From the NCBI GenBank assembly GCA_002742765.1, contig DLUF01000115.1:1-44028 (forward strand): a DNA stretch of 44,028 nucleotides. The letters run 5' to 3'. The notes under the pieces are model-generated. The model was not told where the DNA came from, searched no databases, and was given only the letters and a program-made list of their open reading frames with translations. The position numbers and the translations under genes are program-made. Of the stretch, positions 7,422 to 32,723 are shown in pieces. Source of the stretch: Sulfurospirillum sp. UBA12182 (GTDB lineage Bacteria > Campylobacterota > Campylobacteria > Campylobacterales > Sulfurospirillaceae). Positions within the stretch are counted from its first letter, which is position 1. Every line of letters begins with the position of its first letter.

Positions 7422-7796
7422 GGGGCTGACTTGGCTTCGACAGGAGTAGTTTTAGCTTATGGCTGCATGTCGCGAGTGAGGGTCTTGCGTTAGACAACCT
7501 TCAAACAATAACTGCTAACAACAGTAACTATCGTCCTGCTTACGCTGCTGCGTAAGTTTTAAAAAACTGAGGACTGCTTCCACTTCTGATTCTATCCAAG
7601 GAAGACTTTGGAAGTATAATAGCTATGATAGATATATCTAAAGAGTGTCTTGGCTTTAGATGAAAGTTAAAGACTCGTTTTGCGTAGTTTTGTAAGTTGT
7701 ATGAAGCAAAATTAAATCCAAACAACTTTTTCTAAGCATGTAGACGTCATAGGTGGCTATTTTTGGACTGGGGTTCGATCCCCCACAGCTCCACCA
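7422..7796 (+). ncRNA. ssrA: Transfer-messenger RNA (tmRNA)
   Basis: The 5' end GGGGCUGACUUGGCUUCGACAGG-type start and the 3' end (T-arm GGUUCGAUCC, then CAGCUCCACCA) are unmistakable. The first and last seven bases pair to form the alanine-type acceptor stem, and CCA is encoded. The tag reading frame runs from a GCT resume codon at 7514 to TAA at 7553-7555 and encodes ANNSNYRPAYAAA. The alanine-rich end fits a protease degron and the ANN start matches other Campylobacterota tags. tmRNA rescues stalled ribosomes with SmpB. Its 3' end is the integration site of the island that follows. Confidence 0.97.
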
Positions 7797-28434: not shown

Positions 28435-29700
28435 CTACTCCTTTAATGCAGCAGCGATAAGCTCAATAGGATTTTTAAACACTATATCTACATTTTGTCC
28501 GTACATCGCATCGCTTAATTGCACTCTACAAGCACTACACTCAGCACTTACAAAGTCTGCTTTAGTCTCTCGTATCATCGCTGCTTTTGGAAGTCCCGCT
28601 GCTTTTGCGAAGTGGTACTTTTCAGTTTGCATCGTCACCCCACCAAAACCACAACATTGATTTGGGTCACTCATCTCACGCATTACATAGTTTTGAGCTA
28701 AAAGATTTCTTGGCTCTTTAAAAACTCCTTGCATCTTTCTTGCGTGACAAGGGTCATGATATGTGATAGAAAAGTCTTGTTTTTTTCGACTTGCTAAAAC
28801 TTCTTTGAGATTTGTCTTTTTTTCTAAGTATTCAGTAGCCATAAAGATATGAGGTTTGATAGCTTCAGCTCTAGCTTTCCACTCAGGTTGGTTATGAAAA
28901 AAGTGAGCATAATCCTCTTTTATCATCGCACTACATGTAGCCTCAGGGATGATGATAGCGTCAAGGTCATTTACGAAACTTTCAATGTACTCTATGTTAA
29001 ACTTTGCTAAACTATCCACACTCTCAAAATCCCCCGTAAAGTATGATGGAGCACCACAGCATTTTTGCTGTTTTATGAGATACGCATCAATCTCTAAAAC
29101 TTTTAAAATCTCCAATAATGCTTTACCGATATCTGTGTACATGTAATTTGCCAAACAACCGATAAAGATACCAACTTTTCCTTTTCCACCGTTATAAATC
29201 ACATCTGGATGGGAATTTAAAAAACTTTTTTTCTTTAGGCTTGGAAGCATCCTATCTATCTTGATAAGAGGAAAGTTACGCATAACCATAGCACTTTGCT
29301 TCTCTACTTTTTTAAAGCCACAGGTTTGAAATATATAACCAAACCTAGCTACTATATCCATGATATTACGATTGCGAAGTAAAAAGAAAGCTAAACGTTT
29401 CCACCAAGCGATGCCGAACTTTTCTCTGATATCATTTCTTGCTTGCTCTATGAGCATATCTACTGGCAAGTCATTTGGACAAACATCTACACAGTTAGTA
29501 CATAAAAAACAGCTCTCAAAGATGCTTTTTACATTTTTATCAAGTTCTAAATGCCCTTGTTTATAAGCTCCTAAGAGTTCTAAAAATCCTCTTGGGCTTG
29601 TCACCTCATCTGCATTTACATTGTGGATTGTACATGTAGGAATACACTTTCCACATTTTATACATGTATCACTTATCTTGCTATAGTCAAAATCTATCAT
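28435..29700 (-). CDS. GlcF/GlpC-like protein with two 4Fe-4S clusters and two CCG domains
   Basis: 421 residues. The N terminus has two ferredoxin-type clusters (CIKCGKCIPTC at 13-23; CFLCTNCVDVCP), then two cysteine-rich CCG domains (CLANYMYTD with KCCGAPSYF; HDPCHARKMQ with QCCGFGG), the architecture of glycolate oxidase GlcF, glycerol-3-phosphate GlpC and lactate-utilisation LutA. No flavoprotein partner is adjacent, so the substrate is unknown. It sits between hemN and hemJ, and its leader carries the same structured element as hemN. Its ATG is 5-6 nt after AAGGGACA. Confidence 0.85.
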   Translation of the reverse strand: MIDFDYSKISDTCIKCGKCIPTCTIHNVNADEVTSPRGFLELLGAYKQGHLELDKNVKSIFESCFLCTNCVDVCPNDLPVDMLIEQARNDIREKFGIAWWKRLAFFLLRNRNIMDIVARFGYIFQTCGFKKVEKQSAMVMRNFPLIKIDRMLPSLKKKSFLNSHPDVIYNGGKGKVGIFIGCLANYMYTDIGKALLEILKVLEIDAYLIKQQKCCGAPSYFTGDFESVDSLAKFNIEYIESFVNDLDAIIIPEATCSAMIKEDYAHFFHNQPEWKARAEAIKPHIFMATEYLEKKTNLKEVLASRKKQDFSITYHDPCHARKMQGVFKEPRNLLAQNYVMREMSDPNQCCGFGGVTMQTEKYHFAKAAGLPKAAMIRETKADFVSAECSACRVQLSDAMYGQNVDIVFKNPIELIAAALKE

Positions 29701-29706
29701 TTATAC

Positions 29707-29780
29707 TGTCCCTTTTTTATCGAACCAAGTCCGATAAAAATTCCTCGCGACTAAAGCACGAACTAAAGTTCTGTATTTCA
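29707..29780 (-). promoter_or_regulatory. Structured leader element, copy A (before the GlcF-like gene)
   Basis: Read leftwards from the hemN stop: a 4-bp hairpin (GAAC-TTTA-GTTC, 29760-29771), the linker AGTCGCGAGGAA, then a 9-bp hairpin TTTTTATCG / CGATAAAAA (29714-29722 with 29732-29740), then AAGGGACA and the ATG at 29700. Over 29707-29752 it is nearly identical to 31154-31198 before hemN. The two stem positions that differ are compensatory, and the upstream hairpins differ wholly in sequence but keep the fold. There is no U-tract, so it is not a terminator. Likely a cis-acting RNA element that includes the ribosome-binding site. Confidence 0.7.
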
Positions 29781-31148
29781 TTATACTGTCTTTGAAAATC
29801 TACGTTTTGCTTCTGGTATCTTTTTCAGATATGCATCAAACGGCATTACTATATTTCGGATAAGAAGAGTTCCTGTGGTACTTACTGTTATCTTATCTCT
29901 TTCTACTTGCACCAAACCTTCCTCTTCAAAAGTTTTCAACTCTTCTATGGCATCTTTGAAGTATTCAAAAAAGTCTATTTTAAACTCACTTTCAATCTTT
30001 GTAATGTTTAGTTTAAAATTACTCATCATCTCCATGATAACAGCTTTTCTAAGAACGTCATCCTTGCTTAATTCCAAACCTCTGTGAACTGGTAAAATTC
30101 CATTGTCAAGTGCTGCTTCATAATCGCTCATATCTTTGAAGTTTTGAACATAGTGAGCTACTCCATCGCCGATACTCGTAAGCCCAATTCCTATAAGATC
30201 AGTTCCACCTTTTGTAGTGTAGCCTTGAAAGTTTCTATGAAGTTCGCCTTTTTCTATCGCTAAGAAAAGTTCATCATTTGGTTTTGCGAAGTGATCCATC
30301 CCTATCATAGCAAGTCCATGAGAGGTTAGATAATCGATAGTATATTTCATGATAGAGAGTTTTTCACTTGGATGTGGAAGTGTCGTCTCATCTATCTTTC
30401 TCATCGTCTTTTTCATCCAAGGAACATGTGCATAGTTAAAAACTGCAAATCTATCAGTATCTAAGCTCAAAGCTTTTTCTAGTGTTGCTTTAAAACTCTC
30501 AAAACTTTGATAAGGCAAACCATAAATCAAATCCATATTGACCGATTTTATCCCTGCATCTCTAACCATATCCACTGCATTTTTAGTTACTTCATAAGGT
30601 TGGATTCTATGAACTGCTTTTTGTACCTCTTCGTTAAAATCTTGAACACCAAAGCTCACACGGTTAAATCCGCCCTCCACTAAAACATCTACTTGCTCTT
30701 TCGTTAAAAATCTAGGATCTATCTCACAGCTTATCTCAGCTTCATTACTCCAGTTTTTAAAGTATTTTTTGATTAACGCAACAATTCTTTGGAGTTGTTC
30801 AGCAGTAAAAAATGTAGGAGTTCCACCACCAAAATGCATCTGTAAAACTTCTCTACTCATATCTAAATGCTGACAAAGAAGTTCTAACTCTTTTTCAAGA
30901 TAGCTTATATAACGCTCTTTTTTGTCTTCTTTAGAAGTAAAAACCACATTACAGCCACAAAAGTAACAGGCACTTCGGCAAAACGGTAAATGAAAATACA
31001 AAGAGAGTTTTCTGTTTTTATCCATATTTTCTAAAATCTCTACATATCTTTTTGCGTCAAAGCTTTCATTGAACTCTGGGGCTGTTGGATAGCTTGTATA
31101 TCTTGGTCCTGGTTTGGAGTATTTTGCAAATTGTTCAAAATTTATCAT
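29781..31148 (-). CDS. hemN: Oxygen-independent coproporphyrinogen III oxidase
   Basis: 455 residues (E. coli 457). A radical-SAM enzyme that decarboxylates coproporphyrinogen III in haem synthesis without oxygen. The cluster motif CX3CX2C is C57, C61, C64 in FCRSACYFCGC, and YFHLPFC precedes it as usual. SAM-binding segments GGGTPTFF and the RVSFGVQDFNEEVQ, MDLIYGLPYQ and MIGMDHFA stretches follow. It is in the leftward run with hemB upstream and hemJ downstream. Its leader holds structured element B. Confidence 0.96.
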   Translation of the reverse strand: MINFEQFAKYSKPGPRYTSYPTAPEFNESFDAKRYVEILENMDKNRKLSLYFHLPFCRSACYFCGCNVVFTSKEDKKERYISYLEKELELLCQHLDMSREVLQMHFGGGTPTFFTAEQLQRIVALIKKYFKNWSNEAEISCEIDPRFLTKEQVDVLVEGGFNRVSFGVQDFNEEVQKAVHRIQPYEVTKNAVDMVRDAGIKSVNMDLIYGLPYQSFESFKATLEKALSLDTDRFAVFNYAHVPWMKKTMRKIDETTLPHPSEKLSIMKYTIDYLTSHGLAMIGMDHFAKPNDELFLAIEKGELHRNFQGYTTKGGTDLIGIGLTSIGDGVAHYVQNFKDMSDYEAALDNGILPVHRGLELSKDDVLRKAVIMEMMSNFKLNITKIESEFKIDFFEYFKDAIEELKTFEEEGLVQVERDKITVSTTGTLLIRNIVMPFDAYLKKIPEAKRRFSKTV

Positions 31149-31239
31149 TTTATTGTCCCTTTTTTACTGAACAAGTCCAGTAAAAATTCCTCGCGACTGA
31201 AGCTTGTGCCTTGCACAGAATTTTTATCATCTCGTTCTC
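31149..31239 (-). promoter_or_regulatory. Structured leader element, copy B (before hemN)
   Basis: Read leftwards: a 5-bp hairpin (TGTGC-AAG-GCACA, 31205-31217), the conserved linker CAGTCGCGAGGAA, a 9-bp hairpin TTTTTACTG / CAGTAAAAA (31161-31169 with 31178-31186), then AAGGGACA and the hemN ATG at 31148. Compared with copy A the hairpin carries ACTG/CAGT instead of ATCG/CGAT, so two base pairs covary. Both copies precede Fe-S-protein genes in the same leftward run. Confidence 0.7.
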
Positions 31240-31723: not shown

Positions 31724-31744
31724 CTCTACATGTAAAGATTTTTA
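31724..31744 (-). repeat. 21-bp post-stop element with ACATGT core, copy 2
   Basis: It begins at the argF stop codon and is identical over 21 bp to the element after truC at 27106-27126. Here it runs into the ribosome-binding site of the next gene (TAGAGGTGA), so the palindrome is close enough to affect that gene's translation. Confidence 0.6.
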
Positions 31745-32662
31745 TCGATGTAAATCTAACCAAACCATAACCGCCTTTTGTGCATGAAGTCTATTTTCTG
31801 CTTCATCAAATATCTCATCACTATGCTCTTCAAAAACCTCTTCACTCACTTCATAATCACGATAAGCTGGCAAACAATGTAAAAACATTGCATCATCTTG
31901 AGCTAATGCCATCATCTGCTTATCAACCATAAAACCTGCAAAATCTTTCACTCTTTGTTCTTTCTCATCCTCTTGTCCCATAGAAACCCAAGTGTCTGTG
32001 GTTACAACCGTTGCACCTTTACAAGCCTCTTTAGGGTCACTGCCTACTTTTATAACTGCCCCACTCTGTTTTGCAAACTCTAATGCATCATTTAAGATAG
32101 CTTCATCAACTTCATACCCTTTTGGAGTAGCAATACGAAGTTCAAATCCTAATTTACTAGCTAACATAAGCCAAGAGTGAGTCATGTTGTTCCCATCACC
32201 TACATATGCAACTACTGGATTTTTATCTTTTTTATACTCAACCATCGTAAGATAATCAGCCATCAATTGTACAGGATGATAAGAATCTGAAAGACCACTA
32301 ATAACTGGAACTTTAGAGTATTTTGCAAACTCTTCGAGTTTTGATTGCTCAAATGTTCTAATCATCACCATATCAACCATACGAGTGATTACACGAGCTG
32401 TATCTTTCATAGGCTCGCCTCGTCCTAATTGCAAGTCATTTGAGGAGAGAAACAGACCTTTACCACCAAGCTGATGGATACCAACTTCAAAGCTCACGCG
32501 TGTTCTCGTGCTACTCTTTTCAAAAATCATTCCTAAAGTTTGATCTTTAAGATAAGGTTTTAATTTCCCTTTTTTTGTCTGTTTTTTGATTTTAATCGCC
32601 AAATCAATAATCTCTAAAATCTCTTCTTTGCTAAAATCTTTGAGTGTTAAAAAATGTCTCAT
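31742..32662 (-). CDS. argF: Ornithine carbamoyltransferase
   Basis: 306 residues from the ATG at 32662 ([11 protein letters not shown]), which matches the start of Campylobacter ArgF; an upstream ATG at 32677 has no ribosome-binding site. It makes citrulline from ornithine and carbamoyl phosphate in arginine synthesis. The carbamoyl-phosphate motif STRTR (51-55), the [11 protein letters not shown] segment and the ornithine-binding HCLPAYR loop are intact. It lies between hemB and the UPF0763-like gene, all leftward. Confidence 0.95.
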
Positions 32663-32723
32663 AACCTTCTCTTTCATTATTTTTTTTATTTTATATAACT
32701 TTTTTCAATAAACTCTTAACAAC

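Follow-up and report, generated by a model that had tools for sequence, protein, structure and literature searches.

The hemN gene and the glcF-like gene of the window (the whole stretch of 44,028 nucleotides analysed here) are each preceded by one copy of a repeat that is dispersed in the Campylobacterales. We consider it probable, at roughly two chances in three, that this repeat has been put at start codons and is tolerated there through a mini-ORF that couples translation to the gene. The element is a real member of a rarely noted kind and is, apparently, previously undescribed. A unit can be read, in order, as a first hairpin (P1), an invariant linker, a second hairpin with a U/A base (P2), an SD-like site and a start codon. 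The repeat unit is about 80-85 bp long, dispersed and strand-oriented with the gene. The features of the two copies and their genes are as follows.

31146 to 31231, minus strand: element copy 1, the hemN leader; full covariance-model match (E=1.6e-20, 86.6 bits), the copy being among those that built the model
31205 to 31217, minus strand: P1 hairpin of copy 1, TGTGC-AAG-GCACA, read in the sequence; P1 covaries over copies
31187 to 31197, minus strand: conserved linker GTCGCGAGGAA of copy 1, by pattern match
31161 to 31186, minus strand: P2 hairpin of copy 1, TTTTTACTGGAC-TT-GTTCAGTAAAAA, from sequence and covariation
31154 to 31160, minus strand: SD-like AGGGACA of copy 1, directly 3' of P2, from sequence
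31150 to 31230, minus strand: mini-ORF of copy 1, MIKILCKAQASVARNFYWTCSVKKGQ and stop, the stop lying 1 nt ahead of the hemN ATG, by ORF reading
29781 to 31148, minus strand: hemN, oxygen-independent coproporphyrinogen III oxidase (TIGR00538, E=1e-196)
29699 to 29785, minus strand: element copy 2, the glcF-like leader; full covariance-model match (E=7.7e-19), the copy being among those that built the model
29760 to 29771, minus strand: P1 hairpin of copy 2, GAAC-TTTA-GTTC, read in the sequence
29741 to 29751, minus strand: conserved linker GTCGCGAGGAA of copy 2, by pattern match
29714 to 29740, minus strand: P2 hairpin of copy 2, TTTTTATCGGAC-TTG-GTTCGATAAAAA, from sequence and formed in the minimum-energy fold
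29707 to 29713, minus strand: SD-like AGGGACA of copy 2, from sequence
29701 to 29781, minus strand: mini-ORF of copy 2, MKYRTLVRALVARNFYRTWFDKKGTV and stop, by ORF reading
28435 to 29700, minus strand: gene for a GlcF/LdhH-like Fe-S protein, 3' of copy 2; LdhH, GlpC and GlcF models matched, all under their curated cut-offs

The product of 29781-31148 is certainly HemN. The start of the copy 2 mini-ORF shares 1 nt with the hemN stop (TAATG), and its own stop abuts the glcF-like ATG (TAAATG). The preliminary description of this DNA had noticed the linker shared by the two leaders, and GTCGCGAGGAA is indeed found in both (31197-31187 and 29751-29741, minus strand). It had also described a downstream stem of 9 bp with two compensatory pairs; the pairs hold (TTTTTACTG/CAGTAAAAA versus TTTTTATCG/CGATAAAAA), but the stem is about 12 bp long when the apical GGAC/GTTC is counted. 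The upstream hairpin is likewise present in both leaders, as TGTGC/GCACA (31217-31205) and GAAC/GTTC (29771-29760), and is kept by compensatory changes. Folded singly, the window copies did not significantly exceed their shuffled versions in stability (z = -1.66 and -1.26); for the hemN copy, the minimum-energy fold also differs from the two-hairpin fold. The folding energy of these copies is, thus, weak evidence of significance, and the case for an RNA structure rests on covariation instead.

The exact linker occurs 5 times in the 2.25 Mb assembly to which the window belongs, compared with 0 matches for a reversed control pattern, and is present in 15 out of 60 relatives. A covariance model was built from 31 copies and, at a threshold of E<=0.05, retrieved 39 copies from the same genome, with a best E=1.6e-20; the window copies helped to build the model, which makes their own scores circular, but this does not apply to most of the other copies. 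The linker counts against the reversed control, together with the covariance-model E-values, exclude a chance origin. Eight members of the Sulfurospirillaceae carry 113, 108, 90, 55, 51, 45, 42 and 28 copies by the covariance model. Copy number ranges from 12 to 45 inside the genus of the window and from 0-3 to 113 across the family, the lowest values being those of genus g2 (0-3 copies), where the site in three genomes is the start of argF. Another family of the order, f7, holds 49 and 35 copies in two genomes, and an even draw of 200 genomes across the phylum gave matches in 22, all from the same order. All named records matching a stricter pattern were Campylobacterota, nearly all of them Sulfurospirillum or unclassified vent MAGs of Campylobacteraceae type.

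In Sulfurospirillum sensu stricto, which is nearly copy-free, the argF copy is found in three genomes (loci L373, L374 and L375 of G010, G003 and G007, respectively); the argF-like gene of the window (31742-32677) has no element copy. Elsewhere the element sits at the same genes across different genera or families, as with rimO (L312, L236), nadC, rpe, ispH and clpX, reflecting either old descent or repeated insertion. Two loci in MAGs labelled Nitratifractor and Helicobacteraceae (L129 and L186) are near-identical to Sulfurospirillaceae loci (L107 and L017); their contigs are probably misbinned, and transfer is possible.

The pairing counts for P2 lean towards the covariance model, two of the three alignments having been fitted to it and the first being plain MAFFT: 95.4% of positions are paired over 31 copies, with changes on both sides in 9 out of 12 pairs, against 93.0% over 98 distinct copies and 94.4% over 73 copies from other taxa. 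The larger sets showed two-sided changes in 11 out of 12 pairs. The covariation score was reached by 0 out of 500 shuffles and was lost when the pairing partners were slid. P1 covaries too, with more misalignment than P2. Among the P2 cells, G-U and U-G together number 127 and A-C and C-A only 33, which fits RNA of the gene strand and not cruciform DNA; the selected structure is thus RNA, kept on the strand transcribed with the gene. From two copies, the preliminary description had proposed that an RNA structure next to the start of translation is under selection. The search with both stems in the covariance model bears this out: it yielded further covariation in P1 and P2 over many copies, and pairing did not break down as copies were added, the stems covarying over about 170 of them. 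An association between a P1 loop CAAAG and a P2 loop CTTTG, which kissing of the two loops would predict, was not found across 143 copies (Fisher p=0.53). The earlier remark that no named riboswitch has this sequence agrees with Rfam, which at gathering scores returned only tmRNA for the window and nothing significant for 11 related loci, and so holds no family for the element. The tmRNA gene is located at 7422-7796 of the window and encodes the tag ANNSNYRPAYAAA.

Copies are tied to start codons rather than scattered without regard to them. Among 88 terminal units with the linker GTCGCGAGGAA, about 80 have the gene ATG at a distance of 48-52 nt from it; most copies end in an SD-like site and a start codon, and for the majority of those in the window's own genome this start codon belongs to a long ORF. 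The genes behind the copies of this genome include typA, upp, nadC, a livF-like gene, atpE, rpe, rpoZ, fliQ, galU, clpX, dnaK, a homoserine dehydrogenase gene, glmM, mreB, ispH, guaB, nuoC and a NifX-like gene, among which there is no common pathway. The link to 4Fe-4S proteins, haem or oxygen that the two window genes had suggested is not supported for the family, and an Fe-S or haem regulon was rejected on the basis of this list. The expectation of many covarying copies before functionally linked genes was borne out as to the copies and failed as to the functional linkage.

Many units are also mini-ORFs of 25-28 codons, a feature that had gone unnoticed in the preliminary description. Out of 55 distinct units with their own ATG, 53 have their stop between -3 and +4 nt relative to the next ATG. 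An ATGA overlap is seen in 38, for which the tail ACAATAAAATGA partly accounts by giving stops in two frames by itself, and in-frame fusion to the gene is seen in none. Units read the linker as VARNF (frame 0), SREEF (frame 1) or QSRGIF (frame 2), and the frame set by the ATG of the unit is open in 38 out of 38, 10 out of 11 and 6 out of 7 cases, respectively. Frame 2 is open in just 22 out of 107 of the other units, and the other frames are closed in 101 out of 118. For frame-2 units, a linker with CTTTAG would contain a stop; CTTCAG is found in 7 out of 8, and the eighth keeps the T and has a closed frame. An upstream gene stops within 5 nt of the unit ATG in 29 out of 64 ATG-bearing units. 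Units are related within arrays and lineages, so that the frame tests hold fewer independent events than the counts; despite this, the agreement of four different tests makes frame-dependent selection persuasive. About half of the units (58 out of 114) have no ATG of their own, and the mini-ORF is, therefore, not a general feature. A conserved leader peptide is unlikely in the Sulfurospirillaceae, given that units differ in the frame in which they read the linker, all three being used.

Units also occur in tandem arrays of 2-4, likewise overlooked before. ATG-bearing tandem units are chained by ATGA overlaps, and the spacing to a second unit with an ATG is a multiple of 3 in 3 out of 24 cases (83 bp being commonest), against 15 out of 26 when the second unit has none. 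In the latter, 81 bp is the commonest spacing, through which a single frame can read, and several such arrays are read straight through. Two forms can be told apart, the first combining an ATG with a P1 of the GTGC-foot type, the second lacking an ATG and having a P1 of the AGC-foot type (association p=3e-7); P1 type was not a significant marker of operon-internal position (p=0.38). The second form dominates outside the Sulfurospirillaceae, where it is found as hairpin leaders, sometimes with an extra upstream stem. At three loci of a genome of family f7 (L342, L343 and L347 of G096), the extra stem is accompanied by a leader ORF of about 40 codons (MIFDKII..CPLGQSF..NFCWN.LPTKRR and stop), which is open through both hairpins and ends just ahead of the gene.

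In relatives without the element, the junction of hemN and glcF reads TCAAAGACAGTATAG and then ATG, TCAAAGACAGTGTAATG or ...TATGATG, so the genes touch or overlap. The window has ACAGTATAATGA ahead of the element and ACAGTATAAATGA behind it, a clear duplication, which supports insertion with a duplicated junction at this site. Extended to loci generally, such a mode of insertion is only partly supported: in a comparison of 37 loci, the 10 nt ahead of the ATG were more alike inside a locus than from one locus to another (permutation p<0.001), but the 9 nt behind it showed no such excess (p=0.16), so that a uniform duplication of the codons behind the ATG is not significant. The site upstream of hemN holds other versions of the element in five g4 genomes and is empty in G002, of the window's own genus, and in g5 genomes. 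Of the two possibilities first offered for the leaders, a regulatory RNA and a mobile-type repeat, the latter is the one supported, whereas the many copies before unrelated genes and the patchy occupancy of sites count against the former.

These observations suggest a route by which the element could persist. It would come to sit at translation starts, often where neighbouring genes nearly touch or overlap, and the old junction would then start a mini-ORF of 25-28 codons that crosses the two hairpins as well as the new SD, ending at the gene start codon or 4 nt into it. Ribosomes from the upstream gene, or from an upstream SD, would be handed to the gene by translational coupling, melting P2 on passage. 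We propose that this coupling is what lets the element be tolerated at start codons; a copy with a closed frame would tend to lower expression and be lost, and units would multiply in tandem. The sequences themselves show the RNA covariation, the position at start codons, the dependence of openness on frame, the ATGA joins, the rule of tandem spacing and the differences in site occupancy among relatives; that the mini-ORFs are translated, that they couple to the gene and that the element moves actively is inferred. A bolder version sees an order-wide family of start-codon-targeting mobile RNA elements, whose RNA structure (linker and two hairpins) directs insertion at SD-ATG junctions and which switch by context between a coupled, translated form and an untranslated structured leader; we hold it tentatively and find it, on balance, doubtful.

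We regard as unlikely a cis-regulatory role, in which the element, as a riboswitch-like RNA or as the target of a protein or small RNA, would tune translation in response to a signal over a large regulon, with the mini-ORFs either incidental or acting as sensing leader peptides. The very strong covariation would suit such an RNA, as would the linker, which is invariant in the forms GCTTYAGTCGCGAGGAA or GCTTYAGTGAGAGGAA, GA-rich and ends in GGAA. So would a 5' UUCUC-like stretch in copies without ATG, able to form an alternative pairing with the linker GAGGAA, and the single argF site long kept in Sulfurospirillum sensu stricto. However, up to 113 copies precede unrelated housekeeping genes, site occupancy is patchy between close species, units form arrays of 2-4, Rfam has no match, and the consensus fold leaves the SD unsequestered.

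A constitutive module for translation initiation or mRNA stabilisation (a 5' hairpin and an SD) that serves high expression and has spread by ordinary duplication and gene conversion, without being mobile, seems to us quite improbable. Whatever the class, a hairpin immediately precedes the SD; a mini-ORF is absent from many copies in other families, and SD-ATG spacers are shared within loci, all of which fit this idea, but it leaves unexplained why openness tracks the ATG frame, the ATGA joins and the empty sites with duplicated junctions. No mobilising enzyme for the element was found in the genomes examined. Most Sulfurospirillaceae genomes have a single Y1_Tnp gene of RAYT size (about 260 aa), whatever their number of elements. 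REP superfamilies are dispersed hairpin repeats, sometimes clustered, with GTAG or CGTC tags (PMC3733652). A REP/BIME-type palindrome moved by this Y1 (RAYT) transposase, for which the dispersed hairpins, the tandem copies and the widespread Y1_Tnp gene might speak, is barely credible. Y1_Tnp does not correlate with copy number: sister genomes holding 0-3 copies have the gene, and none was found in G015, G020 and G023, each with at least 36. The element alignments show neither a GTAG nor a CGTC tag where the palindrome has its foot, and the element, unlike REPs, is tied to start codons and pairs in an RNA-strand-specific manner.

Among known systems, the likeness is to mycobacterial MIRUs, which Supply et al. 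reportedly described in 1997 as also tandem and oriented with genes. A 2025 review (PMC12548453) presents them as apparently mobile repeats at start codons, with an internal ORF coupled at -4 nt and little harm to the gene. As to architecture, the element can be called MIRU-like in all the features that were tested. Both are short repeats, single or tandem (a class of about 40-100 bp in MIRUs; units of about 80-85 bp in arrays of 2-4 here), located at start codons in gene orientation. Both have an internal ORF coupled at -4 nt (ATGA) or similar (here 53 out of 55 ATG units, 38 with ATGA). Both appear to be mobile, the sign of it here being the hemN/glcF and hemN upstream sites that are empty in relatives. 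The element differs from a MIRU in its host, Campylobacterota rather than mycobacteria, and also in its strongly covarying two-hairpin RNA, a linker read in all three frames and a large class without mini-ORF, the untranslated form.

Other systems share single traits. The bicistronic designs (BCDs) of synthetic biology put ahead of the target a short cistron that starts on its own, holds a second SD within its coding sequence and ends in overlap with the target start codon, but they are engineered, whereas the element occurs naturally, as a repeat whose hairpins are conserved. In class 1 integrons, ORF-11/ORF-17 of attI1 is a small ORF that, through translational coupling, supplies the first cassette gene with ribosomes (PMC8876359); unlike the element, it occupies one fixed integron site, is not dispersed and lacks such a covarying hairpin pair. 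The enterobacterial RU-1, RU-2 and RU-3 are small mobile repeats with ORFs that are fused within genes (PMC2759123), in contrast to the mini-ORFs, of which 0 out of 55 are fused to the gene. A literature search, to which subscription journals were mostly closed, found nothing relevant on such repeats in Epsilonproteobacteria or Sulfurospirillum.

If the proposed reading is true, a MIRU-like system exists outside mycobacteria and spans several Campylobacterota families. It would make selection for translation legible from DNA alone, the open frame tracking the start codon though the sequence is read in three frames, and would provide natural ATGA-coupled leader cassettes ahead of dozens of housekeeping genes. 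The number of units varies between species, and so may tune expression as tandem repeats do. The element also makes testable how repeats can invade junctions where genes all but overlap and yet leave the operon intact, and it concerns genome annotators and RNA-family curators, who currently have no entry for it.

Phage carriage was considered and set aside, the exact patterns giving 0 and 1 matches against viral contigs and the single match, L372, being located in an unrelated phage-like contig and having no hairpins. A few copies in the window's own genome are composite (L002/L041, L214 and L042, on contigs C41, C28 and C50), with a second hairpin block inside the P2 loop or between half units, and look as if elements had been inserted into one another.
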